Position numbers and translations under genes: made by a program. Shown here one piece after another: positions 32,541 through 57,108 of a stretch of DNA of 64,000 bases. How positions within the stretch are numbered: position 1 is the stretch's first letter; every line of letters begins with the position of its first letter. The notes under the pieces are model-generated. The model saw only the letters and a program-made list of their open reading frames with translations, was not told the DNA's origin and made no database searches. This DNA comes from Pseudomonas brassicacearum. GTDB taxonomy: Bacteria; Pseudomonadota; Gammaproteobacteria; Pseudomonadales; Pseudomonadaceae. The stretch covers positions 2,976,001-3,040,000 of the forward strand of contig NZ_CP045701.2 in assembly GCF_009601685.2 (NCBI RefSeq), in the 5' to 3' direction.

Positions 32541-32715
32541 CTAAAGACTCTCAGGGTCGCCGAAGAACATTTTGACTGGGCTCTAGGACAATGTTTTTAG
32601 GTCGATAACACTTTTGTTTGCCCCCACTTTTGCCCCCATTCGTACCGAGTGTGCGGGTGATCGCGAATGGCAATTTCCGACGGACTTCGCTATTCCTGGC
32701 CACTTAAGCCGTTGG
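32541..32715. repeat. Copy 2 of the mexT-3'-end repeat (putative att site plus arm)
   Basis: The minus strand of the first 30 bp encodes MFFGDPESL and TAG, identical to the end of MexT in this window. Then come TTTTGACTGGGCTCTAGGA and two GCCCCCA motifs near 32620 and 32632. The core and first 17 flanking bases are nearly identical to copy 3 at 45521. Confidence 0.82.
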
Positions 32716-32728
32716 GCCAGGTTGCTGA

Positions 32729-33085
32729 TCAATCGTTAGGCAAGTGCAACTGCACTTCCATGGCGTCATGAAGGAGCCTGACGACCTCGATCACGTCGTC
32801 GTTTGCCACACGATAGAACACGATATGGCGTGGGCTTTTGACCGTTCCATGGGTTTGTTTGGCCTGCTGGCGTGAATAGATGAGGTGATAGCTGCGAAGG
32901 CCCGGTGCAAGCTCATCGCGGTCGTGGCTGCCGATGCGATAAGGCGTGTCGGCAAGCGCTTGCAGCGCCGCGAGGATCAGCGCTTGGTAGCGCTGGCGAG
33001 CTTGATCGCCGAACTGCGTCTGCGAGAGCCTGAGAATGTCGACAATGTCGGCGCGCGCCGGGTTGGAAATCCGATACTGCGGCAT
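32729..33085 (-). CDS. parE: ParE/RelE-family toxin
   Basis: 118-residue toxin of the ParE/RelE superfamily. ISNPARADIVDILRLSQTQFGDQARQRY, then HIVFYRVANDDVIEVVRLLHDAM, are typical of the ParE N-terminal helices and C-terminal strands. ParE members usually poison DNA gyrase. The start is 2 bp downstream of the antitoxin stop on the minus strand. Confidence 0.88.
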   Translation of the reverse strand: MPQYRISNPARADIVDILRLSQTQFGDQARQRYQALILAALQALADTPYRIGSHDRDELAPGLRSYHLIYSRQQAKQTHGTVKSPRHIVFYRVANDDVIEVVRLLHDAMEVQLHLPND

Positions 33086-33087
33086 GC

Positions 33088-33378
33088 TCAGTGTTTCTCT
33101 CGCGCGGGGAGGGTTGCCTCCAGGCTCAAGCCCTCGAGGTAGTGCTCCAGATCCCCTTCGTTCACCTGAGTAAAGCGCCCGTGCTCAAGATCCATGATGC
33201 CGATTGAGGTCGCCTGACGCAGGGCCTCAATTTTGGCGGTGTCTTCGGCGACGCGCTGCTCCAATAAACGTAAACCTTCTCGCATCACTTCGCTGGCATT
33301 CTGATAACGGCCGGACTGCACCAAGTCATGGATAACCTGTTCCTGGTGAGGGGTGAGCACAACGTTTCGCGTCGCCAT
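33088..33378 (-). CDS. parD: ParD-family antitoxin
   Basis: 96-residue ribbon-helix-helix antitoxin. MATRNVVLTPHQEQVIHDLV and SGRYQNASEVMREGLRLLEQ match ParD/CC2985-type antitoxins. The start at MATRN is supported by GGAG 6 bases upstream; a longer in-frame stretch upstream is discarded. It binds and neutralises the ParE product and represses the operon. The 302 bp up to the next gene hold no recognised gene. Confidence 0.88.
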   Translation of the reverse strand: MATRNVVLTPHQEQVIHDLVQSGRYQNASEVMREGLRLLEQRVAEDTAKIEALRQATSIGIMDLEHGRFTQVNEGDLEHYLEGLSLEATLPAREKH

Positions 33379-33680
33379 AACTAGCTCCAGGTCTATGCAA
33401 ACAGGTACTTTTGATTGTTGGCATATTATGCCATTTTCGCTCAGGAGAATAGCTTGGGGCCGACATCCGGCGATCAGGTGATGGCTGACTCGGCGCCAAT
33501 CAGCAAGGTTCAAAGTCATCCGCCCATAATAAAGCGACCTGCAGATTGATTTGAAGATTGATATGCCTGACTGTGCGTGGGAGGAGACGCGCGATGTGTG
33601 CTTCTCGATCCGCCCTGAAATCGATCGGCATGTTCGATGCCCATCAATATTTGCGTTTAGAGGCATCAAGAGAGGTTCCA

Positions 33681-34664
33681 ATGCCCTACGAGTTAGAAAA
33701 TCGCCTGGTGATTGGCGTCGCTTCCAGCGCTGTGTTTGATTTGTTGGCATCGGACGCAGTGTTTCAGAGTCAGGGGGAGGAGGAATACCGCAAGTTTCAG
33801 CAAGAAAATCTTCACGTCCCGCTTCCTAAGGGGATAGCGTTCCCCTTCATCAAGCGCTTACTGTCAGTGAATGACCTTAGCGTCGATCCTACGGATCCGC
33901 TCGTCGAGGTAATACTTCTTTCGCGTAATGATCCCGACACTGGGCTGCGCGTACTGAAGACTATCGAGCACTATGGGCTTGGGATGACAAGGGCGATTTT
34001 CATGCAGGGAAAATCTCCTTATGAATACATACCAGCACTGAATATCGCTTTATTTTTGTCGGGTGACAAAAAAGACGTGGAAGCGGCTATCAGGGCCGGG
34101 TACCCGGCTGGCCAGGTGCTCGATTCAAAATTTGAAGACGACGAGACTGATAAAACCCTACGCATCGCATTCGACTTTGACGGCGTGCTCGCCGGCGATG
34201 AGTCCGAAACAATCATGCAGGCCTCTGGATTGTCTGAGTTCCATGCGCACGAAGTGAAGAACGTCATGCAGCCCCATAACCCTGGGCCGCTGAAGGAATT
34301 CATGGTGCGGATATCCAAAATCCAGTCGGTCGAGGAGAAGCACAAAAAGCTCAATCCTAAATACGAAAACCGCATACGCGTCTCGATCGTCACAGCCCGC
34401 AATGCTCCGTCTCATGAGCGTGCGATGAATACACTCAAGAGTTGGGGTGTTATGGCCAATGACGCATTCTTCCTAGGTGGCATCGAGAAAGGAAAAATTT
34501 TAGGTGTATTGAAACCACACATCTTCTTCGATGACCAATCAGGGCACCTTAAATCGACTAGCGCAGTTGCTCCATCCGTGCACATTCCTTTCGGCATCAC
34601 CAACCATGTCGCTACTGTGGATGCGCTAGAGCCTGAAGCGGATCAGGTCCAGCAGGTGGTGTAA
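33681..34664 (+). CDS. cN-I-like 5'-nucleotidase
   Basis: 327-residue protein matching the cytosolic 5'-nucleotidase I family (PF06189). PFIKRLLSVND, VEVILLSRNDPDTGLRVLKT, SPYEYIPALNIALFLS and the HAD-like IAFDFDGVLAGDESE are visible. It would hydrolyse nucleoside 5'-monophosphates. The ATG at 33681 follows AGAGG; upstream codons lack homology. It stands alone between parDE and an IS relic. Base composition (more A/T) differs from the flanking core genes, consistent with transfer. Confidence 0.82.
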   Translation: MPYELENRLVIGVASSAVFDLLASDAVFQSQGEEEYRKFQQENLHVPLPKGIAFPFIKRLLSVNDLSVDPTDPLVEVILLSRNDPDTGLRVLKTIEHYGLGMTRAIFMQGKSPYEYIPALNIALFLSGDKKDVEAAIRAGYPAGQVLDSKFEDDETDKTLRIAFDFDGVLAGDESETIMQASGLSEFHAHEVKNVMQPHNPGPLKEFMVRISKIQSVEEKHKKLNPKYENRIRVSIVTARNAPSHERAMNTLKSWGVMANDAFFLGGIEKGKILGVLKPHIFFDDQSGHLKSTSAVAPSVHIPFGITNHVATVDALEPEADQVQQVV

Positions 34665-34780
34665 CACGGTGGCTTGAGCGCGTAGTACCACAGGAATTCG
34701 TATCGGTTCTGTGCTTGAACTGGCCTAATGATCCCGGACACCTCTTAAGGGCGATATGATTCGCCCAATCAGGAGGTTCC

Positions 34781-34926
34781 ATGCAAGAGCGATAGACCTA
34801 CACCCGCGAGTTCAAGCAACGTGCTGCAAGCATGGTTCTTGATGATAGCTGCTCAGTTCCCGACGTCTGTGCATCTATGGACGTTGGGCCTACGGCTCTG
34901 CGCCGCTGGATTGGTCAGGTCCAATC
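34781..34926 (+). pseudogene. IS3-family OrfA transposase remnant
   Basis: An AGGAGG site and ATG are followed by an in-frame TAG at codon 5, then TYTREFKQRAASMVLDD and VCASMDVGPTALRRWIGQV, the N-terminal helix-turn-helix of IS3-group OrfA proteins. No OrfB or terminal repeats are visible. Confidence 0.7.
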
Positions 34927-34981
34927 GTTGTGTAGATACCTATGCCGATCAATGGGCCGATCAATGGGTTAAAACACGTGG

Positions 34982-35347
34982 CTACCAGCCACCGGGAAAC
35001 CATTGCCGGGCGAGCTGCACCGTTACGCGCAAGGTGTGCTGGCTTTGTTCGCACGCAAGCGCCTGTTCTTCAGGCGACGCCGGTTTGCTCCACTTTGGCT
35101 GGGTTGCCAAGCGCTGTGCATAGCTAGCTTTAAACGCAGGGCTGGCCTCGCCAGTCAGCCGCATCGCTTTAGCATAGTCCGCCTCGAGATCTTCGGGCAG
35201 CGAACCACAGGCCAGTTTGGCTTGCTGATAGCGCACGGCGTACATGAAGCCATCGGTGGGGGCTTCGTCGTAGGTGTAGCGGGAGGGTTCTGCGGCCATG
35301 GCAGTACCGGTGAGGAATAGGGCGATGAGGAGGGGGCGTCCGTGCAT
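34982..35347 (-). CDS. Small exported protein of unknown function
   Basis: 121 residues starting MHGRPLLIALFLTGTAMAAE, a clear signal peptide with cleavage after AMA or AMAA. The mature part is polar with two Cys residues (ACGSLPEDL and ALACEQS) that could form a disulfide in the periplasm. No family is recognised. It diverges from the helicase-topoisomerase operon. Confidence 0.6.
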   Translation of the reverse strand: MHGRPLLIALFLTGTAMAAEPSRYTYDEAPTDGFMYAVRYQQAKLACGSLPEDLEADYAKAMRLTGEASPAFKASYAQRLATQPKWSKPASPEEQALACEQSQHTLRVTVQLARQWFPGGW

Positions 35348-35532
35348 GGGCGGGGAAAGTCTCGGGTGGTTGACGGTGCGTTTGACCTGAACACGAGTTG
35401 TATAGCATTGAACAGGCCACTCGTTAACTATACGTGCCCGGTTTGAATTGCAGCGACCAAGGCAATGGGCCATCATTGTTGGCCGCTACGAGCCATTCTT
35501 CGTATGTCGTTCGGATTTATAGGGTGTAAGAA

Positions 35533-38500
35533 ATGTTTAGGCGTCTCATGGACTTGAGCAAGCGGTTGCGCAAGGATTTTGCTGCTGTAGCGGTTTCCAA
35601 GGAACAGGTTCTGCACTCGATGGAGGTGTACCCTCAGGCAGGCCCCGTCGGGTGTTTGCCCGCGAATGTGCTGGACTACTGGCACAGAGCGCTGATCGCC
35701 GATGACTTGGGTGGCCTGCAAGCCACCGATGTTCGCATTCCGTTGAAAAATTACGCGAGACTGGCCTGGCCCGACTTCAATCTTGGTTTCGGCACGCGCC
35801 CGGCGCTGGCGCTGGGCATTCTCACCGAGCGTGCCGCAGAGGCTCGGCGTAAACAGCAAGCGCAGGCGCTTGAGGCGTCAGAGGACGACGCAGAGGGTGA
35901 GCAGGAGGCGGACGAGCCGGATGACGATCCGCGCATTCCCATGGCGCTGGTGTTTCATCAAACCACTTCATCAAACGATGAGGTCCAGGTCACGTGGCCC
36001 GACCCGGATAAAAAGCCTGCGCCGGGCGCGAAAAAAATCCGCCTCAAGCCCGACCGGCTGAATATCGCGTTCTGGTTTCCTTTCGACCTGAACGACAAAA
36101 ACCAAATATGCCTGCCACGCGACCCCAACGATTGCCGGCCGCGTGTGGTCCGCCAATGGCTTGAACCGCAGCCATTGATGGCGGCCAACGACCTGCCGCC
36201 GGCCATTGGCCACTTCGATTGCTATCGCGACGAGCTCAAGCTATTTCTCGCGACGTTGAGCCAAAGCGCCAATTTGAGCGGTTATGTCGACGCCTGTTTT
36301 GCCTTGTTCGCCCGCGTTCAAGCGGATGGGGTTGAGACGGGAATGGCGCCGATCACGGGGCAATGGGTTGCGGTGCCGCGACAGCCTGGCTATGCAACAC
36401 GTGCGCTCGCCAACGTGTATGAAGCGATCCCCAATGCGCCGTCCATCGGCGCACTGGAGCAGCTCATAGGCGCCGGACGACACCGTTCGGCTGTCCAGGC
36501 AGGCGGCATGGCAGCGCCGCAGGTGACGATCCGGCACGTGGCCATGGTCGATAAGGCCACACACCTCGACAAGCCAGACGTCAATCGCGGCGCAGACCCC
36601 TTGAACGAATCGCAGCGCCGCGCATTGCACGCCCTCGGCCGGTTGGGTGAGCAGGTCGGGGTGGTTGCGGTCAGTGGGCCGCCGGGCACCGGGAAGACGG
36701 CCATGCTGCGTGCGATGATCGCCAACCAATGGGTGTTGGCGGCTTACGATAACCGCGAATATTGCCCCGTCACGTTTGTGTGCGGGGCGACCAACCAGAG
36801 TGTCGAGAATGTGATGGGCACGTTCAATGGTGCCGTAGGCAGGAAGCATGCCCTGGCACGTCGTTGGTTGGACCCTACGGGCAAGCCACTATTGGGTTTC
36901 ACCGCCAGCGCACCGTCCAAGGCCAAGGGGAAAACCCATCGCAGCAAGTTCACCACGCTTGAGATCCGGCAAAAGCAGTTGCGCATCTTGGGCGTCGGGT
37001 CCTCCAGCCTCAAGCAATCGTACGAAGACGGTGTTGCGGCAGCCCTTGCTTTGGCGCGGCACTTTGAAGATGCCTTCCGCGAGCTGCCAGAGTTGTTCAA
37101 TGCGTTGTTTAGCGTTGAGCAGAAACATCAGGTCAGTGATGCCACGCGTTTTATCTATCTCATGCAGAAGAGTGCTTCGACAACGCCTACGGCGTCGACC
37201 CTCTGCGAGCACTTGAACACGCTGACCCAGGTATTGCGCAGTGGGTTGGCCTCAGCAATCGAGCGCCAGGCTGACATCGACGCGTTCATCGAGCCCGGTG
37301 AACTGGCTGCGCGCTTTCCCAGTGAGGCATGGGTATCTTCCTGGGCCATCGACATCCTCGCGGATTTGCGTGTGGCTGCAACCCCCGAGGCGCGGCAGGC
37401 GCAGCAGCAGAAATTGCTGGATGTGGTGTGGCGGCCGATTATTTTCCAGTTGGCCGCGCGTTACTGGGAGACGCGTTGGCTGGCCAGTGTGATCGCAACC
37501 CCCGAGCCTGGCAGCCGAAAGAACGCACTCAGGCACACAGCCATGCTGTTTCCGTGCATTGTCGCCACCTTGCACAGCGCCCCACGGTTACTGGGAGAGG
37601 GCCGTAGGCCGCTGTTCGCGTTCCTGGATTTACTGATTATCGATGAGGCGGGGCAAGCTGCGCCGGAGCTGGGTGTGCCGGTGCTTAGCCTGGCTAAAAA
37701 AGCCGTGGTGGTCGGCGATATGAAGCAGCTCTCCCCCGTGTCTTCGGTAACACCCGAGGTCGATGCGCGCCAGGTGCAGGACCGTTGGGCCGATCCGTCG
37801 TCTTTGGACGCCTTGCTCGTGCGTGGCGCGGACTCCGCCACGGGTTCAATCATGAAGCTTGCCGCAACCGGGGCATCGTTTGCCGAGGCCATGCCGGACG
37901 GACGGCTACGGGACGGGCTGCTCCTGCGGGAGCACTACCGTTGTGCAGAGTCGATCATCAATGTGTGTATCGATTTGCTGTACCACGATCACGACCGTGA
38001 TGCCGAGGGCGGGTTGCTCAGCAAAGAGTTGGAACCCAAAGTGCCCAACCCGCTGGCAGGGCTGTTCGCGGATGCCGAGTTGCCCTTGCTCGAGGGCGAA
38101 GCTGAAATGCAGTTGCGCAAACGCATGAAGGCGACGTTCCCGCTACCGCCGCTCGGGTTCTATCAGACCGGTGGCCCGAACGATGAGCCCTGCAAAGGCG
38201 ACTCATGGTCCAACCCTGGAGAAGCCAAGGCCATCGTGGACTGGCTTAAAGAGCACGGACCGCGCCTGGCGAAGTGGGTCGCCAGGGTCGAAGGCCACCC
38301 GGAGCAGCCGATAGGGTTGGAAAAACTTGTCGCGGTCGTCACGCCATTTCGAGGCCAGGTCGAAGCGATAAAGCGTCGGGTGCGCGAAGAACTCGACCCT
38401 GATGACGCTGACCTGAGTGAGCGTTTGACCATCGGCACGGTTCATACCCTTCAAGGGGCGGAGAAACCTGTGGTGTTGTTCAGTGCCGTGAATCGGGAAA

Positions 38501-40689
38501 GCCGCGCCAGCCGTCGAACCGATACCAATCATCGTGAGCGGGTGTTTATCGATCGTGACGATGGGCGCCTGCTCAACGTAGCGATCAGTCGTGCGCAGAA
38601 AAGCTTCATTATGTTTGGCCATTCCGATCTGTTTTTTTCCCAGCAGGCGATGGACCCGAACAACGATTTGCCTTCGGCTGTGGTAGGACGATGCTTGGCC
38701 GGTGTGCGTGAGCCAGAGCATGAGCGGCTCACCTGCGCCCCGCGGGTGCCAGCGTGCAAGCTCGGTCCCGCCACGCTGATGGTTGTCGAATCCTTGCACA
38801 AGGCGAAAATCATTCAAGAACTGGTACCTGGCGGTACTCAGGTGTTCGGCTGTGGCGGTCATATTCGTGACCTCCCAGGCCCCGGTGCGATCAGTTGGCG
38901 TGATGGGTTCAAACCGCACTGGCAATTGAGCGAGCGCGAAGGCAGTGACCTGGCGGCGTCCCTACGCAATACCGGCAGCCGTTTACTGCAATGCACTGAG
39001 CTGGTGTTGGGGACGGACGATGATGCCCAAGGCGAAGCTATCGCCTGGCACATGATCCAGGTACTCAAGGAAGCACCGTGGTTCATGCATATCCAGAGGG
39101 TGCGTCGGGTAAGGTTTCATGCATTGACCACCCCCGAAATGGCCCGATCATTTGAGGAGGGTCGGTGTGTACAGGTCGAGGGCGCTACCGCCGACGAGCG
39201 AGCTGCCAGCGCTTGCCGGGCCTTGAATATGGGCTTGGCATATGGAGCCATTGCCCAGCGGGTGCTGGACAACCTCATCGGCTCGGTCTACATGCGTCAC
39301 GGTATTGTCGGGGGCGGACGGGTCAAGGGGCCCTTGCTCAGGGTACTGGCGGGCCATGGTGATTCCCCGGGGTTACCCGGTAAACGGTTGGGTGTCGCGA
39401 TAAACCTGAAAGTGAACGATACCCTCGTGCCGGCTCGCTTGATGGTGCGGCGCGGCAGCGAAGCTTGGCGCGCGTGGGGCAGTGACCGCACAGAGAGCGT
39501 TCACACCTTGATCGACCAACTGAGCGACGCGGTGGTTTCACCGACACCTTGCGTGCTCGAGCATGAGGACTTGCTGCTGGCACCTGCTCAAAGCCTGGGC
39601 ACTAACCTGGTCCTGCAAGAGGCGTTCAGGCGATTTGGCTGGATGCCGTCGAGCACCATGAGCACGTTGCAAAAACTGTATGAGATGCGCGAGGGGCAGG
39701 ACGAGCCCGAGTCAGCACCGAACGACAATGGTTGGGCTGCATTGGATGCGCAGGGACGCCTGTTCCTGACCGAGTCCGGACGGCGCCAGGCAGATAAGGT
39801 GCTGAACAACCCTTGGCTGAACACAATCAGCGCCAATGCGTTGTTGATGGCCTTCGACGATGCGCTGACTCACCTGTCCCAATTGCCGGATGCAGGGGAG
39901 GCGGACTACCTTGCGTTCGTGCACACCTGGGCGGCGCAGTTTGATGATCAGTGCGGCGCGCAGCCGGTTGCGGGCCCCCATGCACCAACGGTCGATGCGC
40001 AAGGCGCTGAGGTCGCGCTGTTTTCTCTGCAGCCCGCCGTCGAGCTGAATACGTGGGGCGCGCCTGCCGGTTCGCCTTCACCCGCTGAGGCCGAGCAGCA
40101 CGACGATGATCCCGCGCCTGGTGCGCAAACCCACCCGGTTTCGGACGGCGGCCGCAGCGGTGCCCACGGAGCACTGGTGCCTCTGGACATCAGCCTGGAG
40201 GCCGACAACCCCAAGATGGCCGCGCTTACCCCGAGGCAGCGGCAACTTTACGACCTGATGTCCAAACTGATGTTGGCCTCTTCCCTGCGAGATGGACAGT
40301 TTCAGACTGTACGCCGGATTTACACCCTGACGTGGCCGGGTAAACCGGCTGTCCGGCAGGTTGAAATTGGTGTCGAGGTGATAACAGGCAAGCCGGGCAG
40401 CTACCCAGGCTGGTTTACGCTGGACCCCGATGGCCTGCACCAGCACACGCGCAATTGGGCGTCGGCAGAGATGGAGGTAGTGCTCGATGAGCAAAGCCCT
40501 CGCTTGCAAGTGATAGTGCAAGACCACGGCATACGCACCCGCTCGCTACTTGAGCCGACAGTCGATCGTTTATTGGCGTGGATGCAAGCGCGTGGACACG
40601 GTAGGCCCTCGACATTCGGCAAGCACATCGATGATCTGGTACGTGGCAATACGTCGAACGCGCGCGCGGAGGGCACTGCCGATGAATAG
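35533..40689 (+). CDS. SF1 (UPF1/DNA2-like) helicase fused to a topoisomerase IA-like region lacking the catalytic Tyr
   Basis: 1718-residue protein. Residues 1-~360 match nothing I recognise and include an acidic linker near 115-135. The helicase has Walker A GPPGTGKT (382-389), DEAGQ (704-708), GDMKQLSP, a TVHTLQG motif and RLLNVAISRAQ. From ~1080 it follows topoisomerase IA. TOPRIM has VVESLHKAK (Glu1086, Lys1090), GHIRDLPG (His1110) and TDDDAQGEAIAWH (1161-). Then come GGGRVKGP (1260-1267), QEAFRRFGW...TLQKLYE (1362-1384), GRLFLTESG (1408-1416) and, at the extreme C-terminus, GHGRPSTF (1688-1695). The ITYxRTDS motif that should follow LYE is absent; the next, overlapping gene carries one. 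Overall this resembles a reverse-gyrase-like pairing built on an SF1 motor. It probably remodels or relaxes DNA, perhaps in phage defence; the function is inference. Confidence 0.8.
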   Translation: MFRRLMDLSKRLRKDFAAVAVSKEQVLHSMEVYPQAGPVGCLPANVLDYWHRALIADDLGGLQATDVRIPLKNYARLAWPDFNLGFGTRPALALGILTERAAEARRKQQAQALEASEDDAEGEQEADEPDDDPRIPMALVFHQTTSSNDEVQVTWPDPDKKPAPGAKKIRLKPDRLNIAFWFPFDLNDKNQICLPRDPNDCRPRVVRQWLEPQPLMAANDLPPAIGHFDCYRDELKLFLATLSQSANLSGYVDACFALFARVQADGVETGMAPITGQWVAVPRQPGYATRALANVYEAIPNAPSIGALEQLIGAGRHRSAVQAGGMAAPQVTIRHVAMVDKATHLDKPDVNRGADPLNESQRRALHALGRLGEQVGVVAVSGPPGTGKTAMLRAMIANQWVLAAYDNREYCPVTFVCGATNQSVENVMGTFNGAVGRKHALARRWLDPTGKPLLGFTASAPSKAKGKTHRSKFTTLEIRQKQLRILGVGSSSLKQSYEDGVAAALALARHFEDAFRELPELFNALFSVEQKHQVSDATRFIYLMQKSASTTPTASTLCEHLNTLTQVLRSGLASAIERQADIDAFIEPGELAARFPSEAWVSSWAIDILADLRVAATPEARQAQQQKLLDVVWRPIIFQLAARYWETRWLASVIATPEPGSRKNALRHTAMLFPCIVATLHSAPRLLGEGRRPLFAFLDLLIIDEAGQAAPELGVPVLSLAKKAVVVGDMKQLSPVSSVTPEVDARQVQDRWADPSSLDALLVRGADSATGSIMKLAATGASFAEAMPDGRLRDGLLLREHYRCAESIINVCIDLLYHDHDRDAEGGLLSKELEPKVPNPLAGLFADAELPLLEGEAEMQLRKRMKATFPLPPLGFYQTGGPNDEPCKGDSWSNPGEAKAIVDWLKEHGPRLAKWVARVEGHPEQPIGLEKLVAVVTPFRGQVEAIKRRVREELDPDDADLSERLTIGTVHTLQGAEKPVVLFSAVNRESRASRRTDTNHRERVFIDRDDGRLLNVAISRAQKSFIMFGHSDLFFSQQAMDPNNDLPSAVVGRCLAGVREPEHERLTCAPRVPACKLGPATLMVVESLHKAKIIQELVPGGTQVFGCGGHIRDLPGPGAISWRDGFKPHWQLSEREGSDLAASLRNTGSRLLQCTELVLGTDDDAQGEAIAWHMIQVLKEAPWFMHIQRVRRVRFHALTTPEMARSFEEGRCVQVEGATADERAASACRALNMGLAYGAIAQRVLDNLIGSVYMRHGIVGGGRVKGPLLRVLAGHGDSPGLPGKRLGVAINLKVNDTLVPARLMVRRGSEAWRAWGSDRTESVHTLIDQLSDAVVSPTPCVLEHEDLLLAPAQSLGTNLVLQEAFRRFGWMPSSTMSTLQKLYEMREGQDEPESAPNDNGWAALDAQGRLFLTESGRRQADKVLNNPWLNTISANALLMAFDDALTHLSQLPDAGEADYLAFVHTWAAQFDDQCGAQPVAGPHAPTVDAQGAEVALFSLQPAVELNTWGAPAGSPSPAEAEQHDDDPAPGAQTHPVSDGGRSGAHGALVPLDISLEADNPKMAALTPRQRQLYDLMSKLMLASSLRDGQFQTVRRIYTLTWPGKPAVRQVEIGVEVITGKPGSYPGWFTLDPDGLHQHTRNWASAEMEVVLDEQSPRLQVIVQDHGIRTRSLLEPTVDRLLAWMQARGHGRPSTFGKHIDDLVRGNTSNARAEGTADE

Positions 40690-41704
40690 CATTTTTGCCG
40701 CCATGACCCTGATGCGAAACGCCTATGAGGCCGCATTGCGCGACCCCTCGGACGCAGTTGCCCAGGCAGCGTTCGTCGCTGCGCACCAAGCGCAACAGCA
40801 CACGTTCGTTGATTCATTCGACGTCGCGGGCATTACCTACCCGCGTACTGATGGGCACACACTGAGTGAGCGTGAAGCGCGCGAGGTGATTTCCAGAATC
40901 CTGTCCAACCCGGCGTACAGCGTATCGGACCTGCGGCCCAGCGTCATTGAAGCGGCCTACCCGCTACAGGCAGACGTGCTGCGTGCGGAAATCGAAGCCA
41001 CGGTCGCGCGGGCCAATAAAATCAATGGGCTCGACTGGCGAACCGACGCGCTCGATGCCAGCACCAAGCAAGCGATGCGTGAACTGCTACGCATGCCCAC
41101 CTTGGCGGGCGGCTACAAAATCATTTCCCAGGTCAAGTCCGCGGCCAACGCCCAGGTGTTGAATATCTACCGTGGCTACGATGCCGATCACTTGATCCCC
41201 GACAAGGCACTGCGAGGGTCACTGCACAGGGGGCAGTCTTTCAGCCTTGACCAGAGCTACGCGACGTTTATGCAGGATTCACAGAACAGAGGATCGCAGC
41301 ATAAATTTGTGACGGACGCCCAGAAACACACACGCAAACGGCTGCGCTGCGATCCGAAACTGCTCGCGAAAAACCCAACGACTGGCGAGTACCTGGAGCA
41401 TGTGCTTGAGTGGATGACCCATGTCTATACCACCGCGGATCTGGGTGTGGATGTGGCCGTCAGGAACAGTGGCCTTGCCAACTCGGATGAATTCAAACGT
41501 TTCAACGTCAAAGGTTTTGACTTGGCGCAGGCAGGGTTCATGACGTGGAATGAACGCAAAAGTGTCGGCCGCGCTGTCGCCATGGTGCTCCTGATTGAGG
41601 CGCGTGAGTTCTACACGGCGGCCGGCTGGCCCATGGACAGGGAGTTGCCTTTGTTCTACGACGTACCTTCTACAGTGACCCAACAACCGGTGCCTGTGAC
41701 ATGA
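40682..41704 (+). CDS. Protein carrying a topoisomerase IA active-site motif in trans (ITYPRTDG)
   Basis: 340-residue protein starting MNSIFAAM; the start overlaps the stop of the helicase-topoisomerase gene by 8 bp. Residues 51-58 read ITYPRTDG, matching the catalytic ITYMRTDS/LTYPRTDS motif of topoisomerases I and III, with Tyr53 as candidate nucleophile and Arg55 as the conserved neighbour. The remainder shows no AHEAIRP or other topoisomerase motif and is otherwise unrecognised. The natural reading is that this subunit completes the active site of its partner. The alternative, a chance match of one short motif, is weakened by the adjacency. Confidence 0.7.
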   Translation: MNSIFAAMTLMRNAYEAALRDPSDAVAQAAFVAAHQAQQHTFVDSFDVAGITYPRTDGHTLSEREAREVISRILSNPAYSVSDLRPSVIEAAYPLQADVLRAEIEATVARANKINGLDWRTDALDASTKQAMRELLRMPTLAGGYKIISQVKSAANAQVLNIYRGYDADHLIPDKALRGSLHRGQSFSLDQSYATFMQDSQNRGSQHKFVTDAQKHTRKRLRCDPKLLAKNPTTGEYLEHVLEWMTHVYTTADLGVDVAVRNSGLANSDEFKRFNVKGFDLAQAGFMTWNERKSVGRAVAMVLLIEAREFYTAAGWPMDRELPLFYDVPSTVTQQPVPVT

Positions 41705-42723
41705 GCGACAACATAAACCCATCAACACCCGCCCATGGCGTCCGGCGCTACCAGCTTGCCGACCTGACAATGGCCGCCGGTGTGCCCTGGTTTGCCGTGC
41801 ACGTGTCGGACGAAAGCGGTCATACATCGTCCTGGATTATCAGGGGGGAACTGGACGGTGAGCATTTACGCCTGCAACCACAGGTTTGGGTGCCAGATGC
41901 CATCCAGGCCATCGTCAATGATAGCGACGGCCAAGTCTGGGCGATCACTAGCGAAGATGAACTGATCACCAACACCGTCCTTGGACAGGTGGCTGGATGG
42001 CGGCAGGTTACGCCCCATCCACAGCTCAACGCGCGCGATGAGTGGTACTCCCGCACACTGGGTTATGTGGCCACGGATGGCCAGAACGTCGAGCTTGCTG
42101 AATGCCTGTGTTGGGCGAGCGATGGCTTGTTGATCGGTACGTTCAGCCGCCGGTTGTATCGTTGGACATCGGGCGATGTTGCTCGCCTTGAACACGACGA
42201 TCACATTGTCGGAACGCTGGGTGGTGTCAACAACATTGTCCAGACGCAAGACGCAATATACGCGCTGGGGTATGCGGGCCTGATCCTGCGTCGGTTGGTG
42301 GACGGGACCTGGCAGCGAATTGATGGACCCTGGCCGATGGAGGCCCGCGCGTTCATCAATATGATTGCCGGTGTCGAAGGTCCGCGAGGGGAATTTTGGG
42401 CCATTGCGGCGGGCGGTTCGGTCGTCAGCGTTGCGGGTGATGTGACCCGCACCATTGCACAAGTACCCGGTGAGCCTCTGGGCATCACCCGGTTCCAGCG
42501 CCAGTGGTTCGTGTCGACCCTCGACGGTTGCTACGAACTACCGGGGGATGGTGACACGGTCCTGATCAAACGCGATATTTTGATGGGTAAATCGATTGAT
42601 GCCGGGAACTGCCTGATTGCCGTCGATGCCGAGCCACAACACGCCGATCACGCGCAGGTCCACCTGTGGTTGCGCACCAGAAACCGCGATGCTTGGCTGC
42701 GCCCAATCATTTGCCGGGCCTGA
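41701..42723 (+). CDS. Predicted beta-propeller protein, third gene of the helicase-topoisomerase operon
   Basis: 340 residues with no recognised family. A pattern recurs about every 45 residues of a short hydrophobic strand, Gly/aromatic turn and second strand: GQVWAITSEDEL, DGLLIGTFSRRLYRW, DAIYALGYAGLILRR, GEFWAIAAGGSVVSV and QWFVSTLDGCYEL. This suggests a WD40/YCF48-like propeller. The start overlaps the previous stop (ATGA), so it is co-translated. A protein-binding or sensor role is inference. Confidence 0.65.
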   Translation: MSDNINPSTPAHGVRRYQLADLTMAAGVPWFAVHVSDESGHTSSWIIRGELDGEHLRLQPQVWVPDAIQAIVNDSDGQVWAITSEDELITNTVLGQVAGWRQVTPHPQLNARDEWYSRTLGYVATDGQNVELAECLCWASDGLLIGTFSRRLYRWTSGDVARLEHDDHIVGTLGGVNNIVQTQDAIYALGYAGLILRRLVDGTWQRIDGPWPMEARAFINMIAGVEGPRGEFWAIAAGGSVVSVAGDVTRTIAQVPGEPLGITRFQRQWFVSTLDGCYELPGDGDTVLIKRDILMGKSIDAGNCLIAVDAEPQHADHAQVHLWLRTRNRDAWLRPIICRA

Positions 42724-42808
42724 TTGAGGCGTTAAGGTGCAAGCGCGCGGGATACGGGCTTGCTTTCGAGGCGCAAGCCCGTGGTTTCACCTGGTCGGCC
42801 AGGCAGGC

Positions 42809-43015
42809 TCAATTGGTTTGTGGGCCGCGCCCGCGATGCGCGGTGATGCGGTTGTAAATGTTGGGTGCCGTGACCGCCATTTCTTTGCTGATCTCCGGGA
42901 CTGAGTAGCCTTTGTCATAGAGATGTTGCAAGAAAGCGTCTTGGTCACGCCGGGCAAGCTGGCCGTAAAAGCCGCGATTTATTTCTTTCTGGATGCCTGA
43001 GAAAAAACCAAACAT
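42809..43015 (-). CDS. Small helix-turn-helix protein
   Basis: 68 residues. The C-terminal half, GYSVPEISKEMAVTAPNIYNRI, has a helix-turn-helix spacing like a resolvase or sigma-factor HTH. The N-terminus MFGFFSGIQKEINRGFYGQL is amphipathic. GAGG lies 6 bases before the start. It sits between the propeller gene and the 362-residue gene on the opposite strand, so it may regulate the system. Confidence 0.6.
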   Translation of the reverse strand: MFGFFSGIQKEINRGFYGQLARRDQDAFLQHLYDKGYSVPEISKEMAVTAPNIYNRITAHRGRGPQTN

Positions 43016-43206
43016 AGGGACCTCTGTATTCGACTCGCGTCATGTTGATGGTGGGAGGAGAAGGCGTGGCTTGGGCCGCTCCTTCTGTATGCAAGCCCCT
43101 TGTAAACCCCGGATTTGGAGTTTGAGTGAGCTAGCCGGTTGCAGGTTATTCACTCTGCTGCTTATCGGCCATCCCAACCTGGGTAGCACCCAGCATGGTG
43201 TGATTT

Positions 43207-44295
43207 ATGCGAACAGACGAATACACGGATGACGAAGTCGAGACAAAGGACAAGTGGGACAAACTGTTCTGGATTGAGCTCGCTAAGCGCAAAGAGCGCT
43301 TGGTAACCGGGGATGCACACCTGATGCTTGTTCAATTGCATGATCAAATAGCCCAGGCCATCGATACACCCGGCCAAGTGATGGATGAGCCCATCGAAGG
43401 CATAAGGGGGGCTGCGGTCCTTTTGGACGCGTTTCAGTGGCAGTACGACCCGGCTGATGAGGCTGATGACGAACACCAGGCTCAGTTGTTGCGGGACACG
43501 ATGAATCGCTTCGAAAGCCAGATTGATGAAGTGTGGTCAAGGTTGCAGTTCACGCGGGGCTTCCGACTTGCCGACCTAGCCGTGGAGAACGACCTTGAAG
43601 ACATGTGGCAGTGGTGGGTGTTCGTCAATTCTTCTGCCGGGCGCGCAGAGCTGGGGATCACCAGCGGAAAGTTCTCGCACCATGGCATACAGGCTCGAAT
43701 GGACGAGGACCATGAGCCGCCACGGATGATTGAGGTCCATACGTTCTATAACCGGCCCGGGCAGTCTCCAATCCCCATTTCCAATCGCAGTGTCAGGAGC
43801 TTCACCACTGACGTGGATGAAGTGATCATCAACGGCAAACGGGTCAGCGATAGTGTAATTGTGGTGTTTGACTCCGAAACTCCAGCGCCATCCAGAAGGG
43901 AAATCGTGAACGCCGCTTATTCCGGCAGAGGAATGATTCGGGCACGGCGTTTAGCGGATGCCCGTGCAAAAGGCGATTACGCCAGACTGCAACGCTTGCT
44001 AGACGAACCGTCGCCGACCACAGATTTTGTCGACTTATTCGAGCCTGTACAGGCGCATAAATTGTTCAAGACACTTACCAGCGTTGCGCCGTTGATTCGA
44101 GGGCTATTCGCCTGGGATCTTCACCATGACCAGGGACTCAGCAAAGCGCAGGCCTGCCGAGTTACGGCGGAAAAACTACCTGGAATGGGCACTACCCCAC
44201 GCAGCGTCAACAATGCGCTTATATCAGTGGGAAAAAAGATCAACGGCTACCAACCCGAGCAATTGCCTTGGATTTTTCAACGCTTTAGCGATTGA
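43207..44295 (+). CDS. Unknown protein downstream of the helicase-topoisomerase operon
   Basis: 362 residues, no recognised family. Rich in acidic and aromatic residues at the N-terminus (DDEVETKDKWDKLFWIEL); a central stretch PPRMIEVHTFYNRPG; the last ~80 residues are helical and may contain a winged-helix-like unit (SKAQACRVTAEKLPGMGTT). No strong ribosome binding site (GGTG 8-11 bases upstream). It may be a fifth component, or independent, since 483 bp and an opposite-strand gene separate it from the propeller gene. Confidence 0.65.
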   Translation: MRTDEYTDDEVETKDKWDKLFWIELAKRKERLVTGDAHLMLVQLHDQIAQAIDTPGQVMDEPIEGIRGAAVLLDAFQWQYDPADEADDEHQAQLLRDTMNRFESQIDEVWSRLQFTRGFRLADLAVENDLEDMWQWWVFVNSSAGRAELGITSGKFSHHGIQARMDEDHEPPRMIEVHTFYNRPGQSPIPISNRSVRSFTTDVDEVIINGKRVSDSVIVVFDSETPAPSRREIVNAAYSGRGMIRARRLADARAKGDYARLQRLLDEPSPTTDFVDLFEPVQAHKLFKTLTSVAPLIRGLFAWDLHHDQGLSKAQACRVTAEKLPGMGTTPRSVNNALISVGKKINGYQPEQLPWIFQRFSD

Positions 44296-44677
44296 GGGTT
44301 CCGTCGCCGGAACCCGGTCGCGTTGAGCTAGGCAGCGCCGTATTGGGCGATACGCCGTTGTGCCAGCGCTCGCCCTCGGCCTGCGTCGCCGCGGTTTCAT
44401 AACGAATGCCATAGGCTTGTTCGCCAATCTTGCTCATGGCATCGAAATGCGCACGACGCGCCTCATCGGCAAGCACGCTGATCAAGCTGATACACAAATG
44501 GCCAAAGGCCTCCTTGTGCGTCTTCAACCACAGGCTGCGCAGCTTGCGGTCGGCGTGGGCTTCGTCGTCCCCAGGTTCCAGGTAGATCAACACAAAGGGT
44601 ACGCCATGGGCCATGATGGCCTCGATTTCGGCTTGCCCCTGTGCACCGTAGCCCGGTACGACCACGTCGTTGCGCAC
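44285..44677 (-). CDS. Hypothetical protein, possibly a remnant
   Basis: 130 residues from a GTG that shares a base with the stop of the preceding thioesterase relic (TAGTG). IEAIMAHGVPFVLIYLEPGDDE, then an Ala-rich helical part, are not recognised. The last 4 codons overlap the convergent 362-residue gene. Since the upstream gene is broken, this may be decaying too. Confidence 0.4.
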   Translation of the reverse strand: MRNDVVVPGYGAQGQAEIEAIMAHGVPFVLIYLEPGDDEAHADRKLRSLWLKTHKEAFGHLCISLISVLADEARRAHFDAMSKIGEQAYGIRYETAATQAEGERWHNGVSPNTALPSSTRPGSGDGTLNR

Positions 44678-45209
44678 TATTCAGCGCGGCGGGTGTTGCA
44701 GGGCTTCAGAAGCCAGCCCAATAGCTGCGTGCGTTGCTGACGCAGGAAAAAGTGCCCGCCGTCCACCAGGCGCCAGTCGAAACCGGCTGCTGCGTGCCGT
44801 TTCCAGCGGCGCGCGGCTTCCACCGTGACCAGGTGATCATCGCTGGCGGCAATCATCACCATCGGCACCGCCAGGGTCGTATCGGTTGCTACGCAGTAGC
44901 CTTCCGACAAGGCACTGTCGCGTACCGCCCAGGTGTCGGACTTCGAGGGCGAATCCTCCTCGCTGTAGTCCGACACTTTGCGCTGGATCGGCAAACTCGG
45001 CGCCGGGCACGCCATCAGGACAGCAACTGCGGGTGGCGACCCTCGCTAGCCAAGGTCCGCGCCACTTCGAGGGCGATCTTGCACCCCAGGCTGCAACCCA
45101 GCAATGCCCAGGGTTTGTCGGTGTAGGGCCGGATCGCGTCCATGAGCTGGCGCATCAGTTGCGTCATGTCCTGAATGCTCGGTTCGGCGATGCGGCTTTC
45201 GCTGAAGGA
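44677..45209 (-). pseudogene. Type II thioesterase relic (frameshifted, 5'-truncated)
   Basis: The minus strand reads DAIRPYTDKPWALLGCSLG, then CKIALEVARTLASEG, with the GCSLG nucleophile elbow of NRPS/PKS-associated type II thioesterases. The frame then hits TGA near 45013; homology continues one base over as LMACPAPSLP, then VPMVMIAASDDHLV and DGGHFFLRQQ with the catalytic His. The N-terminus is missing, and an hxsD fragment abuts it. No biosynthetic cluster is nearby. Confidence 0.75.
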
Positions 45210-45210
45210 T

Positions 45211-45297
45211 CTACGAGTAAGCCTGTTCCGGGGAAAGCATTAACCTTGCTTTGGCGGGGTGGGCCATGAGGCTTATCTGATCGGTTTCAATACCGAC
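45211..45297 (-). pseudogene. hxsD fragment
   Basis: The minus strand reads VGIETDQISLMAHPAKARLM and then LSPEQAY, closely matching VGIETNQISLTAHPAEARLT in the intact hxsD at 60433-60732. It stops at TAG at the junction with the thioesterase relic. This is the trace of a second, lost HXS cluster. Confidence 0.85.
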
Positions 45298-45300
45298 ACG

Positions 45301-45520
45301 ACTCGGTCATTAATACGGGGTAGGGCTGAGGGCTCATATCTCCTTCAGTCCATTCATCCTCATCAATAGCCTGCTTGGCCTCAGACTGGCGGCATCATTT
45401 TCAAACCATCCAAAGCATGCCCTCAAATTTGCCCCAAATGTAGCAATTCGCTGGAAGTAAATGGCTATTCGAGACTAGAAAAACGCAGAAATGATCAGCT
45501 AACAAGCATGCGCGAAGCCT
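45301..45520. repeat. Left copy of a 220-bp direct repeat (other copy 60856-61077)
   Basis: Shares CTCGGTCATT, GCCTGCTTGGCCTCAG, TTTTCAAACCATCC and GCATGCCCTCA in the same order and spacing with 60856-61077. In both places it runs up to the mexT-end core. No gene is seen in it. Confidence 0.85.
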
Positions 45521-45695
45521 CTAAAGACTCTCAGGGTCGCCGAAGAACATTTTGACTTGGCTCTAGAACGGTAGTTTCAGATCATAAAAAACTAATGATG
45601 CCCCCAGTTTTGCCCCCAGTTACACAGGGTGCGAGAGCGCTCGCGAGCGGCGATTTCTCACGGACTCCAGTATGGCAGTGACTGGCTTTCGGTGT
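45521..45695. repeat. Copy 3 of the mexT-3'-end repeat (putative att site plus arm)
   Basis: The minus strand of the first 30 bp reads MFFGDPESL and TAG, as in mexT. TTTTGACTTGGCTCTAGAA follows, with two GCCCCCAGT motifs (45600, 45612). The remaining interval to 45986 contains nothing I can identify. Confidence 0.82.
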
Positions 45696-45986: not shown

Positions 45987-47087
45987 TCAGACGAGGCGCT
46001 TCTCGAAACCAGCCAGATATTCGCGAACCATCGTCGAGTAGGGTGCTTGAGGCTTGGCCATCTCTTTCATATGTCGCACCGTACGGTCTATCAATGCTTC
46101 CATTCGTTTTATGATGCGCTTGTTTTCATCCGCGCACGGAGCATTCCTGCACACTTCGAGTTTCAGAATCATCGCGCAAAGATCCTTTACTGACTCCTCC
46201 ATAAAGGCGAGTTGGCGCAGTACTCGCGTGCGATCCTGGACCAATCCCAAACGGTTCAGCCCGTAGGTATGGATCGATACCGCGCCACGAAGACTGAGCT
46301 TGTTTTCAAGCGCCTTATCAATTTCACCTTTGAATTCCGGGAGTAGATCTTGGGTTGGAATGACTTCAGGTAGCCCCGCGCCATCGTGTGGTTTTGGTAA
46401 CACCAACCCAATGAGCTTTTCGCAGTCGACATGGAAGGCTAAATGCTCTTGTGGATCATCCCGGCAGGGATTGAGTAACAACGCGTATTCCGTTGAACAG
46501 TCCCTCGAGTCCTGTGTCGCGCGCGGCCCCAGGATTGGAAAATGGTTGCCTTTACCTGTAGTGACCCTGCGTTGCTTGCTGAAGCCTAAGTGGTCACTGC
46601 GCAGTTCAACCAATTGGGTTGAGAGCACCGGTGTGATGTGTTCGTTCAGTCGGTTGCAATGGATACAGCTGGGAAGCAGGTTTTCCCAATCCATCGCCAG
46701 CCACCAATACCCCGTATGGTCAGTATCATTTACGCCCCCCTTCGGCCTGTAATGCTCTACGTCAACCGGGGCCACGGCAGGGTAGAACGTTTCGCAATAC
46801 GCGCACTTGCCATGAAACAGCGCTAACAACTGGGTTTTGACCGAATTTTTGCGATAGGTCTTGAAAAGGGGTTTTTTCAAGGAGTCCACTGCCTTTGCGG
46901 CTTCAATCACAACCGGATCATCGGCCGCCAGCGTGGCTCTGGCGCGCGCCAAGGTCTCAAGTGCAGCCGTTTTTTCTTTGAAATAGGCGGTTAAATCAGT
47001 GAGTTCCTGATCCGCGGCACTGACTGTGGTCTTTCTCGGCAACATCGCCAGGGGCTTTTTCACGAGGGATCGGTCAACGAAGCGCAC
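45987..47087 (-). CDS. ptuB: HNH endonuclease, Septu PtuB-like
   Basis: 366 residues with a central HNH/zinc module: CAYC (95-98), VEHYRPKGG (Glu111-His112), YWWLAMDWENLLPSCIHCN (Cys141, Cys144, Asn145). This matches the PtuB/TIGR02646-type nucleases of Septu and some retron systems, which cut nucleic acid when released or activated by the partner ATPase. The GTG start has AAGGA about 9 bases upstream and lies 3 bp after the ATPase stop, so the two genes form an operon. A C-terminal helical region of ~130 residues follows the nuclease core. Confidence 0.83.
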   Translation of the reverse strand: MRFVDRSLVKKPLAMLPRKTTVSAADQELTDLTAYFKEKTAALETLARARATLAADDPVVIEAAKAVDSLKKPLFKTYRKNSVKTQLLALFHGKCAYCETFYPAVAPVDVEHYRPKGGVNDTDHTGYWWLAMDWENLLPSCIHCNRLNEHITPVLSTQLVELRSDHLGFSKQRRVTTGKGNHFPILGPRATQDSRDCSTEYALLLNPCRDDPQEHLAFHVDCEKLIGLVLPKPHDGAGLPEVIPTQDLLPEFKGEIDKALENKLSLRGAVSIHTYGLNRLGLVQDRTRVLRQLAFMEESVKDLCAMILKLEVCRNAPCADENKRIIKRMEALIDRTVRHMKEMAKPQAPYSTMVREYLAGFEKRLV

Positions 47088-47090
47088 GGT

Positions 47091-49439
47091 TCAAAAGTCC
47101 TTGAGGATATTCAGTATTTTGGTCTTGGTTTCCACACGTATCGTTTCCCACTCACTGGAAGGCTCCTTCTTTCGCCGCTGAAGAAATTCGGCGACAGCCT
47201 CCTGAACGACACGCTGGGCCTCACTGGTGCCAACGGGAAGCGCGTCCTTGACCTCATCTTCGAAATAGGCCATGACCCGCTGTTCTTGGGCGGTCAACAC
47301 TTCTCTGTTTTTGCGCTTGCTCAATAGATCGGCCACGCTGGCCAATTGCTTCTCCATTTCCGGCTGGTCAGTTGACATCAAATTGAAAAAATCGGACGTT
47401 AGCAACTGCTCGATCGTCAACCGGGAGGAGTCCGGTAGATCACTCAATTGCTCAATGCACGTGGCGTACTGAGTCTTTGCCCCGCCAGCCTTGGACCGAC
47501 GTTGAACGACCACGACTTCTCCTTTCTGCATGCCGCGCAGACATAGGGGGTCATGGCTGGTGGCGATGAACGTGACCTTGGGCAAGGCCTTGCGCAACAC
47601 ATGCATGATCTGAATTTTCCAGCGCGGGTGCAGGTGCGCTTCGACTTCGTCGATTAACACCACAGCCTGGGCATGCTCAAGTCCTTGAAAACGGGGATGG
47701 ACGCGACGGTCCATGAGCCGTTGCATGATGTCGCATACCATTGCCAGGATGGTTCTGTAGCCTGAGGACACATCATTGAGCGGTGTCCTAGTCACTACAC
47801 CGGCGGGGACCGTCACGATCAGGCAAGATTTACCGTCGGGCGCTTTTTCGATGACTTTTATGTCGCCGTCCACAGACATGATGATTTTCAATGCACGGGC
47901 TACGTCATTGAAGTCTTCGCCTTCCAGCCCGAGCAGCCAGTGCTCCGGATTGGCCAGTAGGCGATCCGTTTCGAACAGGTTGATGATCGCATGATCGGCT
48001 TCATGAGCCGGAGGAGATCTTTTCTGGTATTGGCGAAAGGCGCCATAAGCGAACACTGGCGGTACATCATCCGGTCCATCTGGTCGAAAGACGTTGTCAT
48101 CAATCCTCAAGACTTTGGCTTGCCCCTCGTCGAAACTCAAACGTACCTGTGCCGGGGTTTTAGAGGCCACGTCATCCGAGCCCAGTTGGGCTGGAGAAAG
48201 TACAAAGGAGGCAGGTGTCAGGTTCAAGGTGGCAGGTGTATCTGGATGGCTCAGAGCAAGCGCAATCGCTTCGAGAATCGAACTTTTTCCGGTGGCGTTT
48301 TCACCCAGTATCAGCAGTGCTGGCTGTAGAGTTTCATTGCTCAACTGCGATTCGGCGCTGAGTGTGCCGAGATTCAATTCGAGGTGCTCGATCGCCTTGA
48401 AATGCTGAAGTTCGATGGAATGCAAGGACGGGTAAACCAGCGGCACAGGTGTCTTCTGCTGGTCTGGCTCAGTGCCCAGAACGCCATAGTCCGTTGGCGG
48501 TATGTTCAAGGTTTTACGGCCGAAGTCAGTTTCTTTAATCCACCCCTGCAATTGTTCACGCGTCTGCTGATAGTCCCCGACTGAAAGCAGGGTTTTCAGT
48601 GTCTTTGCCACCCCGGAGCGGCCGGTAGGCATTGTCAGGCCAGCTCTTTGTGACAAGTACAGCGCAATTCGCCGGCATTGCAGGTACCACAGGCCACCGA
48701 ACTCAAGTTCGGCAAAGTCAAAATAGGTCTGAAAGGTAGCCTGGCGTAATCGCGGCAGGTGTTCACCAGACGCCAATAGTTCTTCACGGTACTGCCGAAG
48801 TCTGGCTTCCCGCAGTTCATTCAATTCTGGACGGTCCAGGCGAAAATTGGCGATTGTGATATCGCCCTCTTCAGACAGTGGCAGCAGCTCGCCATTAACG
48901 GAGGGGAAAAAGTGCTTTTCAAAACGCTGATCAACGCACGGATCAAGCAAAACGGCTGTCTCGCGGTATGTGGAGAAGCGCCATGAACCGAGATTGTCAT
49001 CGGCATACTGGCGCAATTGCTCAAGGTTCGGAATCGGAGCACGTTTGCCCTTGACCGGAAAGAACGAAGGCTGACGCGGAATACACTTCAGACAGATGGG
49101 ATAGATATTTTCCCAGGCATTGGCGAGCCAGACATAGTAGAGATGCGAGTCAATGCCTCCCATCGTAGAGGTTGCAGACGACGTTGGTCGGAATCGGTAG
49201 GGAAGTGGATGATCCTTGCTTTCGCAAAATGCGCATTTCCATCGAAACATTTGTCCCAGCGCATCATAAACAGGGCTGACCTGGTTCAGATTCAGTTCCA
49301 GGTCTTCCATGGGCACACGGGTTTGAGAGCGCTCCTGAGTGTCCAGACTGAAGAAATCCAGCAGTTGCTCTCTGGACTTCCTGAATTGCTCTTCGCGGAA
49401 AATGGAGGGAGGTACTTTGTTGCGTAAAAATCTTTGCAT
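47091..49439 (-). CDS. ptuA: AAA/ABC-type ATPase with N-terminal degenerate HNH-like domain, Septu PtuA-like
   Basis: 782 residues. The C-terminal ~440 form an SMC/ABC-type ATPase: Walker A GENATGKSS (379-387), signature NDVSSGYRTI, Walker B VVLIDEVEAHLHP, H-loop ATSHDPL. The N-terminal ~200 have the HNH zinc cysteines CAFC (69-72) and CLKC (116-119) with WENIYPIC, but the EHYRPK catalytic stretch is replaced by PYRFRPTSS. LLDPCVDQ mirrors LLNPCRDD in the partner nuclease. So the ATPase carries a catalytically dead-looking copy of its partner's domain. It probably senses infection and controls the HNH nuclease. Divergent from the helicase system, with a shared promoter region at 49440-49675. 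Confidence 0.83.
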   Translation of the reverse strand: MQRFLRNKVPPSIFREEQFRKSREQLLDFFSLDTQERSQTRVPMEDLELNLNQVSPVYDALGQMFRWKCAFCESKDHPLPYRFRPTSSATSTMGGIDSHLYYVWLANAWENIYPICLKCIPRQPSFFPVKGKRAPIPNLEQLRQYADDNLGSWRFSTYRETAVLLDPCVDQRFEKHFFPSVNGELLPLSEEGDITIANFRLDRPELNELREARLRQYREELLASGEHLPRLRQATFQTYFDFAELEFGGLWYLQCRRIALYLSQRAGLTMPTGRSGVAKTLKTLLSVGDYQQTREQLQGWIKETDFGRKTLNIPPTDYGVLGTEPDQQKTPVPLVYPSLHSIELQHFKAIEHLELNLGTLSAESQLSNETLQPALLILGENATGKSSILEAIALALSHPDTPATLNLTPASFVLSPAQLGSDDVASKTPAQVRLSFDEGQAKVLRIDDNVFRPDGPDDVPPVFAYGAFRQYQKRSPPAHEADHAIINLFETDRLLANPEHWLLGLEGEDFNDVARALKIIMSVDGDIKVIEKAPDGKSCLIVTVPAGVVTRTPLNDVSSGYRTILAMVCDIMQRLMDRRVHPRFQGLEHAQAVVLIDEVEAHLHPRWKIQIMHVLRKALPKVTFIATSHDPLCLRGMQKGEVVVVQRRSKAGGAKTQYATCIEQLSDLPDSSRLTIEQLLTSDFFNLMSTDQPEMEKQLASVADLLSKRKNREVLTAQEQRVMAYFEDEVKDALPVGTSEAQRVVQEAVAEFLQRRKKEPSSEWETIRVETKTKILNILKDF

Positions 49440-49675
49440 TGCTCATCTTCCCTGACACGGCGAAAAAAACCGCCACAGATCATCGCCAAACACAGGGTGC
49501 ACGATATAGCATGGGGCCACTATCGAAAAGTCTGTGATGGTCCGCGAAGGCTGTCACGCGTCATTGAGGCATACCTAATGTCCACGGCTTCAGGAATGGC
49601 TTGTTTCAAGCAATAACCTGGCACCCGCCCGTGTCGAGCCCTCGGGCTTTTGGAGAATCTGTACTTCAATGGACT

Positions 49676-51318: not shown

Positions 51319-51327
51319 GGACCCATC

Positions 51328-51768: not shown

Positions 51769-51780
51769 GATCTACGACCT

Positions 51781-57058: not shown

Positions 57059-57108
57059 GGGATAATTCCTTCGTTGCTGAACGGACGCTAGCTTTAACCT
57101 GAAGCGAC

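Follow-up and report, generated by a model that had tools for sequence, protein, structure and literature searches.

Can the active site of a type IA topoisomerase be built from two separate proteins? This question is raised by three consecutive, overlapping genes, all on the + strand, in a window of 64,000 nucleotides of the Pseudomonas brassicacearum genome (contig NZ_CP045701.2, positions 2,976,001 to 3,040,000; coordinates below are those of the window). P1 (35533..40689) encodes a protein of 1718 amino acids in which an MkoC-like superfamily 1 (SF1) helicase precedes a type IA topoisomerase part without the catalytic tyrosine. P2 (40682..41704) encodes 340 amino acids with the catalytic-tyrosine motif ITYPRTDG, and P3 (41701..42723), also of 340 amino acids, is the third member of the conserved operon. 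P1 and P2 share the 8 bp ATGAATAG (40682-40689), and P2 and P3 overlap by 4 bp. A preliminary description of this DNA had reported an 8-bp overlap of P1 with a gene carrying ITYPRTDG and Tyr53, both of which are present. The end that it gave for the tyrosine gene, 42723, is in fact the end of P3, a slip that may have arisen because P2 and P3 are of equal length. Judged from their sequences, P1 and P2 appear to supply an active site that is assembled in trans.

The type IA landmarks attributed to P1 were confirmed, as was the absence of the tyrosine motif. The TOPRIM region (residues 1081-1197; 38773..39123, + strand) contains VVES at 1084-1087, which includes E1086, and TDDDAQGEAIAWH at 1161-1173, which includes D1162 and D1164, with Q1166 two positions on. 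The following topoisomerase part (residues 1198-1384; 39124..39684, + strand) contains GGGRVKGP (1260-1267) and ends with LQKLYE (1379-1384), and a later stretch (residues 1537-1704; 40141..40644, + strand) runs from AHGALVP to GRPSTF (1690-1695) and matches positions 207-353 of Pfam Topoisom_bac. Pfam scored Toprim at E 1.9e-10 and Topoisom_bac at E 1.2e-8 (34.8 bits, just below the cut-off of 35.1). In a profile alignment with 30 ordinary type IA enzymes, for which the host's own TopA was the reference, P1 residues 1075-1390 aligned to TopA 4-321 (E 6.5e-32) and residues 1535-1718 to TopA 371-514 (E 1.3e-10). Structure comparison assigned the type IA fold to P1, without the tyrosine segment. 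The ordinary enzymes were taken out of whole genomes as the longest frame with a tyrosine motif, which makes their tyrosine count uninformative and leaves their counts at R114 and E115 unaffected.

The missing tyrosine is a property of the family. Y-x-R-[T/S]-D was absent from 17/17 P1 proteins (the window's protein, 15 from one protein search and P0036 from another), which rules out a substitute motif of that form elsewhere in P1, and a search with P0035 found no relative with the tyrosine in cis among the roughly 8000 best candidates scored. Each of the three protein searches scored about that many candidates, and the lists of relatives may be short. Identity in the topoisomerase part falls as low as 31% (P0035), and the 16 other P1 proteins remain open and conserved. 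E1086, K1090, D1162, D1164, H1545, G1690, R1691, P1692 and T1694 are invariant in all 17, as read from two alignments of 16 and 5 sequences that jointly hold them all. P0015 was excluded from the alignment as a chimera, and P0037-P0039, which carry PF01396 and PF01131, were excluded with no helicase domain in their precomputed domain list.

The tyrosine is found in P2, where ITYPRTDG occupies residues 51-58 and the codon of Tyr53, the predicted nucleophile, lies at 40838..40840 on the + strand. YPR[T/S]DGH occurs in 21/21 P2 proteins (the window's and 20 from the protein search), and the tyrosine, whose fate in homologues had been set beforehand as a refutation test, is kept in every one; Y53, P54, R55, D57 and G58 are invariant in the 20 proteins that were aligned. 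The requirement of a topoisomerase profile match beyond chance, another refutation test set beforehand, also left the proposal standing: Pfam was sufficient for P1, whereas P2, with a weak Pfam match of its own (E 0.16), needed a family profile. Against the 30 ordinary enzymes this profile scored 49.2 (E 2.4e-5) versus a best of 27.2 among column shuffles, none of 100 being as high. P2 residues 49-76 landed on TopA 322-352, between the blocks 4-321 and 371-514 matched by P1, and the piecewise Pfam positions were 119-155 in P1, 158-185 in P2 and 212-353 in P1. With the tyrosine absent from all 17 P1 proteins and present in all 21 P2 proteins, and P2 49-76 filling the gap, the split is conserved. 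A frameshift or sequencing error was ruled out, since GRPST is encoded ahead of the tyrosine and the same layout is seen in another 16 P1 proteins and at 8 other loci. The proposal that a type IA enzyme has been split, and not merely frameshifted, was thus supported.

None of the families in Pfam, NCBIfam, PADLOC and PHROGs matched P2 above its cut-off, and the predicted structure of P2 had no fold match, the topoisomerase fold included. SNARE matches in a PDB sequence search (best E 0.55) and a match of the P2 profile to BepE (E 0.25) were taken as chance. In the model, residues 48-53 fall under 50 in predicted local distance difference test (pLDDT), so the placement of Tyr53 is not confident; such a loop could become ordered only on P1, and a poor model would look alike. 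Further invariant residues lie outside the motif, for example D169-H170, D199, N202 and Q206-H207. The C-terminal part of P2 (residues 130-300; consensus LLRMPT, DHLIPD, DSQNxGSQH and VKGFxxxQAGF) is conserved without a family match, and possibly has a second activity. The weak beta-propeller match of P3 was to Reg_prop (E 0.0028; 18.1 bits versus a cut-off of 20.4).

The metal-binding site of P1 is altered in a consistent way. Canonical type IA enzymes read DxDRE where 17/17 P1 proteins read DxDAQ, and R and E stand at those positions in 30/30 ordinary enzymes. The third acidic residue of the DDE triad (E115) is therefore glutamine in P1 (Q1166), and the arginine of AHEAIRP is also changed in the P1 family (AHGALVP in the window's P1). 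According to the portions available of two papers, mutations in the D111/D113/E115 triad are rejoining-deficient and lethal (PMC7823277) and the Mg2+ site is formed by one Glu and two Asp (PMC6101483); those same portions contain no statement on Gln at the third position of the triad. The DxDAQ change suggests that rejoining may be weak.

The preliminary description had called the enzyme rearranged as well as split, and while the split held, the re-ordering is probable. The P1 stretch between LYE and AHGALVP aligns to TopA 512-582, a segment that comes after GRPST in TopA, and P1 residues 1397-1474 (39721..39954, + strand) are possibly this segment relocated. Scores were 23.5-25.1 with four reference rows, 1/150 shuffles was as high for each, and 0 or 1 of 150 shuffles landed on the TopA 512-582 range. 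This was a retest in which P0036 was added, the whole inserted stretch of P1 was used and the four rows shared shuffle seeds; an earlier, narrower test without P0036 was not above shuffles (12/100 as high). Support is moderate, and the design of the retest was settled on only once the first test had been made. A shift of the post-GRPST segment to directly after LYE is thus likely, although not proven.

All of the SF1 helicase motifs claimed for P1 were found: GPPGTGKT (382-389), DEAGQ (704-708), GDMKQL (728-733), TVHTLQG (969-975) and ISRAQ (1018-1022). Residues 137-1046 (35941..38670, + strand) matched positions 52-260 and 487-959 of the 1136 in the PADLOC model of MkoC (E 1.9e-133), the helicase also matched Pfam AAA_11 and AAA_12, and the nearest solved helicases by sequence were UPF1/SEN1. 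The motor residues are invariant in the P1 alignment. The closest resemblance of this motor is to MkoC, the helicase of the Mokosh type II defence system. P1 had 13 Pfam matches at E <= 1, none of them to a PLD family, and residues 1057-1718 had no PADLOC family match at E 0.001. The term reverse-gyrase-like, used in the preliminary description, is not supported: the motor is of the UPF1/MkoC kind, and the reverse gyrase model TIGR01054 gave 21.8 bits versus a cut-off of 471.7, with its best stretch only at residues 1155-1211. Relatives of MkoC occur in 14/350 genomes, the own genome included. In 7 of the 14 MkoC loci outside the own genome, no topoisomerase part was spotted by eye in the longest frame, the domain scan being confined to L047.

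The pairing of the genes is conserved across homologues, as P1 and P2 overlap in 8/8 loci (seven Pseudomonas genomes and L062) and P3 follows in 7/7. Distances among P1 and P2 proteins were correlated over 10 pairs (r 0.967; 0/2000 permutations), which remained after three of 13 (L005, L006 and L062) were dropped as near copies before the count; in five of the ten, P1 and P2 were matched solely because their contigs are equally long, and L004, L007 and L008 are mutually close. Scans for promoters and terminators gave site numbers not above shuffles. Hosts include Pseudomonas, Aeromonas, Massilia, Paraburkholderia, Bordetella and Azospirillum, with only P1 seen in Azospirillum and Bordetella, only P2 in Paraburkholderia, and both in Aeromonas in different species. 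With the own genome excluded, P2 was present in 2/94 genomes of relatives, 3/297 of the genus, 0/368 of the class and 0/397 of the phylum, draws that overlap one another. It had no match in plasmid or phage collections, and 12 pattern matches in viral contigs included no relative. The system is rare, a mobile gene set of Pseudomonas and some relatives.

Direct repeats that copy the 3' end of a LysR gene enclose the 13 kb (32542-45522) in which the trio is found. Copies on the + strand at 32542-32570 and 45522-45550 mark the edges of its insert, and with further copies at 55380-55408 and 61079-61107 they divide the region into three inserts in tandem, about 13.0, 9.9 and 5.7 kb long. A 28-base repeat pattern (<=3 mismatches) has three occurrences in the 6.58-Mb genome, all within the window; the fourth copy, at 55380, is more diverged. 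Repeats also flank the trio's stretch in L005, L006 and L007 (0-4 mismatches), while the stretches examined hold one copy in L004, L008 and L062 and none in L009 and L010. No integrase was recognised among the frames scanned. Taken together, the repeats and inserts resemble integrating elements of one family, non-autonomous and carrying defence genes as cargo. The three inserts in the window begin with a common TTTTGACT-GGCTCTAG and TGCCCC-type sequence.

The trio's insert also carries ParDE and a 5'-nucleotidase (33558-34664; PF06189, E 2.7e-126; PADLOC candidate PDC-S08), the latter found beside the trio in 2/7 other loci (L004 and L006). The next tandem insert holds Septu (PtuA/PtuB) and an MkoA-like helicase, and in this window the earlier description of defence genes near the trio is supported; Septu was not found in the seven other loci within the 21 kb examined. 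The Septu-like PtuB/PtuA pair lies at 45987-49439 on the - strand. At 49601-55212, an MkoA-like SF1 helicase (E 2.9e-111) and an upstream gene weakly like MkoB (E 0.002) are a divergent Mokosh type I-like pair. In the third insert, positions 55700-60451 encode a pair of radical SAM proteins together with a DUF5710 protein, which may be a peptide-modifying system of the His-Xaa-Ser-like kind.

The fold of P1, motif conservation, the complementarity of P1 and P2, operon conservation and the kinship with MkoC were all computed here, and they lead us to a reading to which we give a probability of roughly 0.6: P1 and P2 form one enzyme, a tyrosine transesterase assembled in trans, the likeliest role of which is anti-phage defence, with the assembled site breaking or topologically blocking foreign DNA. 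The motor and the DNA-binding domains would come from P1, together with the metal-binding site of TOPRIM, the GRPST helix and the catalytic histidine H1545. P2 would add the strand and helix that P1 lacks, bearing Tyr53, Arg55 and Asp57. The helicase would open duplex DNA so that a single strand enters the cleft, where Tyr53 would attack the phosphodiester and leave P2 bound to the 5' end. We infer that the two proteins form a complex, that it cleaves DNA and that it serves defence, as well as any weakness of its rejoining. The defence role is judged most likely because a motor of the MkoC kind has its nuclease domain replaced, which suggests an effector, and because the mobile insert lies beside defence genes; such a motor combined with DxDAQ favours cutting and capping of unwound foreign DNA. 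A more specific version, which we offer tentatively, is an immune DNA-tagging enzyme derived from a topoisomerase, in which Tyr53 would cut phage single-stranded DNA fed by the helicase and P2 would stay covalently attached, capping the 5' end, since DxDAQ would be poor at rejoining and the subunit with the tyrosine can separate. If so, a topoisomerase gate would have been turned into a suicide nuclease that is inactive until its subunits meet. The invariant DxDAQ makes cleavage without rejoining directly testable.

An enzyme of this composition could instead be a true two-subunit topoisomerase. It would relax, unlink or positively supercoil DNA and rejoin it normally, with strand passage powered by the helicase, and would serve the replication or maintenance of the insert or host instead of defence. 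P1 folds as type IA, P1 and P2 jointly cover TopA 4-514 with the tyrosine segment, the motor and TOPRIM residues are invariant, and reverse gyrase, in the part of PMC8185306 available, shows that a helicase-topoisomerase pairing can supercoil. However, the host genome already has two ordinary type IA enzymes besides the trio, the substitution of DxDAQ for DxDRE in 17/17 falls in a triad whose mutation impairs rejoining (PMC7823277, as far as its available text goes), the motor is MkoC-like and not reverse-gyrase-like, and presence is patchy with defence neighbours in the window. We regard this explanation as unlikely.

Two further readings draw on other observations, namely the altered residues at R114, at E115 and at the arginine of AHEAIRP, the many more invariant P2 residues outside the tyrosine motif, as an enzyme might have, the failure of Pfam to detect P2 and the absence of a topoisomerase fold match for it. 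The first two would suit a topoisomerase part that is a non-catalytic DNA sensor or clamp, with the P2 motif structural and the effector elsewhere, in the C-terminal part of P2 or in P3. A dead site would not need E1086, D1162, D1164, H1545, R1691 and Y53/R55/D57, all of which are invariant, and this possibility seems less likely again. The last two would suit a chance resemblance in P2 beside a decayed fusion in P1, which is very improbable when 0/100 shuffles reach the P2 score, P2 aligns to the missing stretch, the motif stands in 21/21 proteins, the genes overlap in 8/8 loci and a further 16 P1 proteins, with identity as low as 31% in the topoisomerase part, are open and conserved. Both halves of the split retain catalytic residues, in proteins that are co-encoded and co-diverging, which argues against decay; a site assembled in trans is the simplest reading.

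Compared with TopA, the trio has the TOPRIM, the fold and the H and GRPST motifs in P1 and the tyrosine motif in P2, but it differs in having the tyrosine on a separate protein, DxDAQ for DxDRE, a helicase in front and a post-GRPST segment that has probably moved after LYE. If true, this is a type IA site formed in trans, with its nucleophile on a protein of no recognised fold and its parts probably re-ordered, and a topoisomerase gate can be dismantled yet retained by selection. Reverse gyrase likewise joins a helicase and a type IA topoisomerase in one machine, although its helicase is SF2-like whereas that of the trio is SF1 of the UPF1/MkoC type. The claim that no described system has this layout stands in part. 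None of the papers retrieved describes the trio, as judged by titles and abstract openings, but there is precedent for splitting, since the Methanopyrus kandleri reverse gyrase is split inside its topoisomerase part (Krah 1996, as cited in the portion available of PMC8185306). There, too, the cut is not at the helicase-topoisomerase border, whereas in the trio the tyrosine segment is all that the small subunit has of the enzyme, the rest of which is probably re-ordered. The Nanoarchaeum equitans reverse gyrase also consists of two polypeptides but is cut between its two domains (Capp 2010, as cited in the same portion), so that its active site stays in one chain. Mokosh type II shares with the trio an SF1 helicase with an N-terminal extension, and where MkoC has a PLD nuclease domain P1 has the topoisomerase part. 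Mokosh type II is a single gene, versus three in the trio. Going by the motor, the trio is closest to a Mokosh type II system in which the PLD nuclease domain has been exchanged, and if the preferred reading is true, a topoisomerase-derived effector would join the SF1-helicase defence systems.
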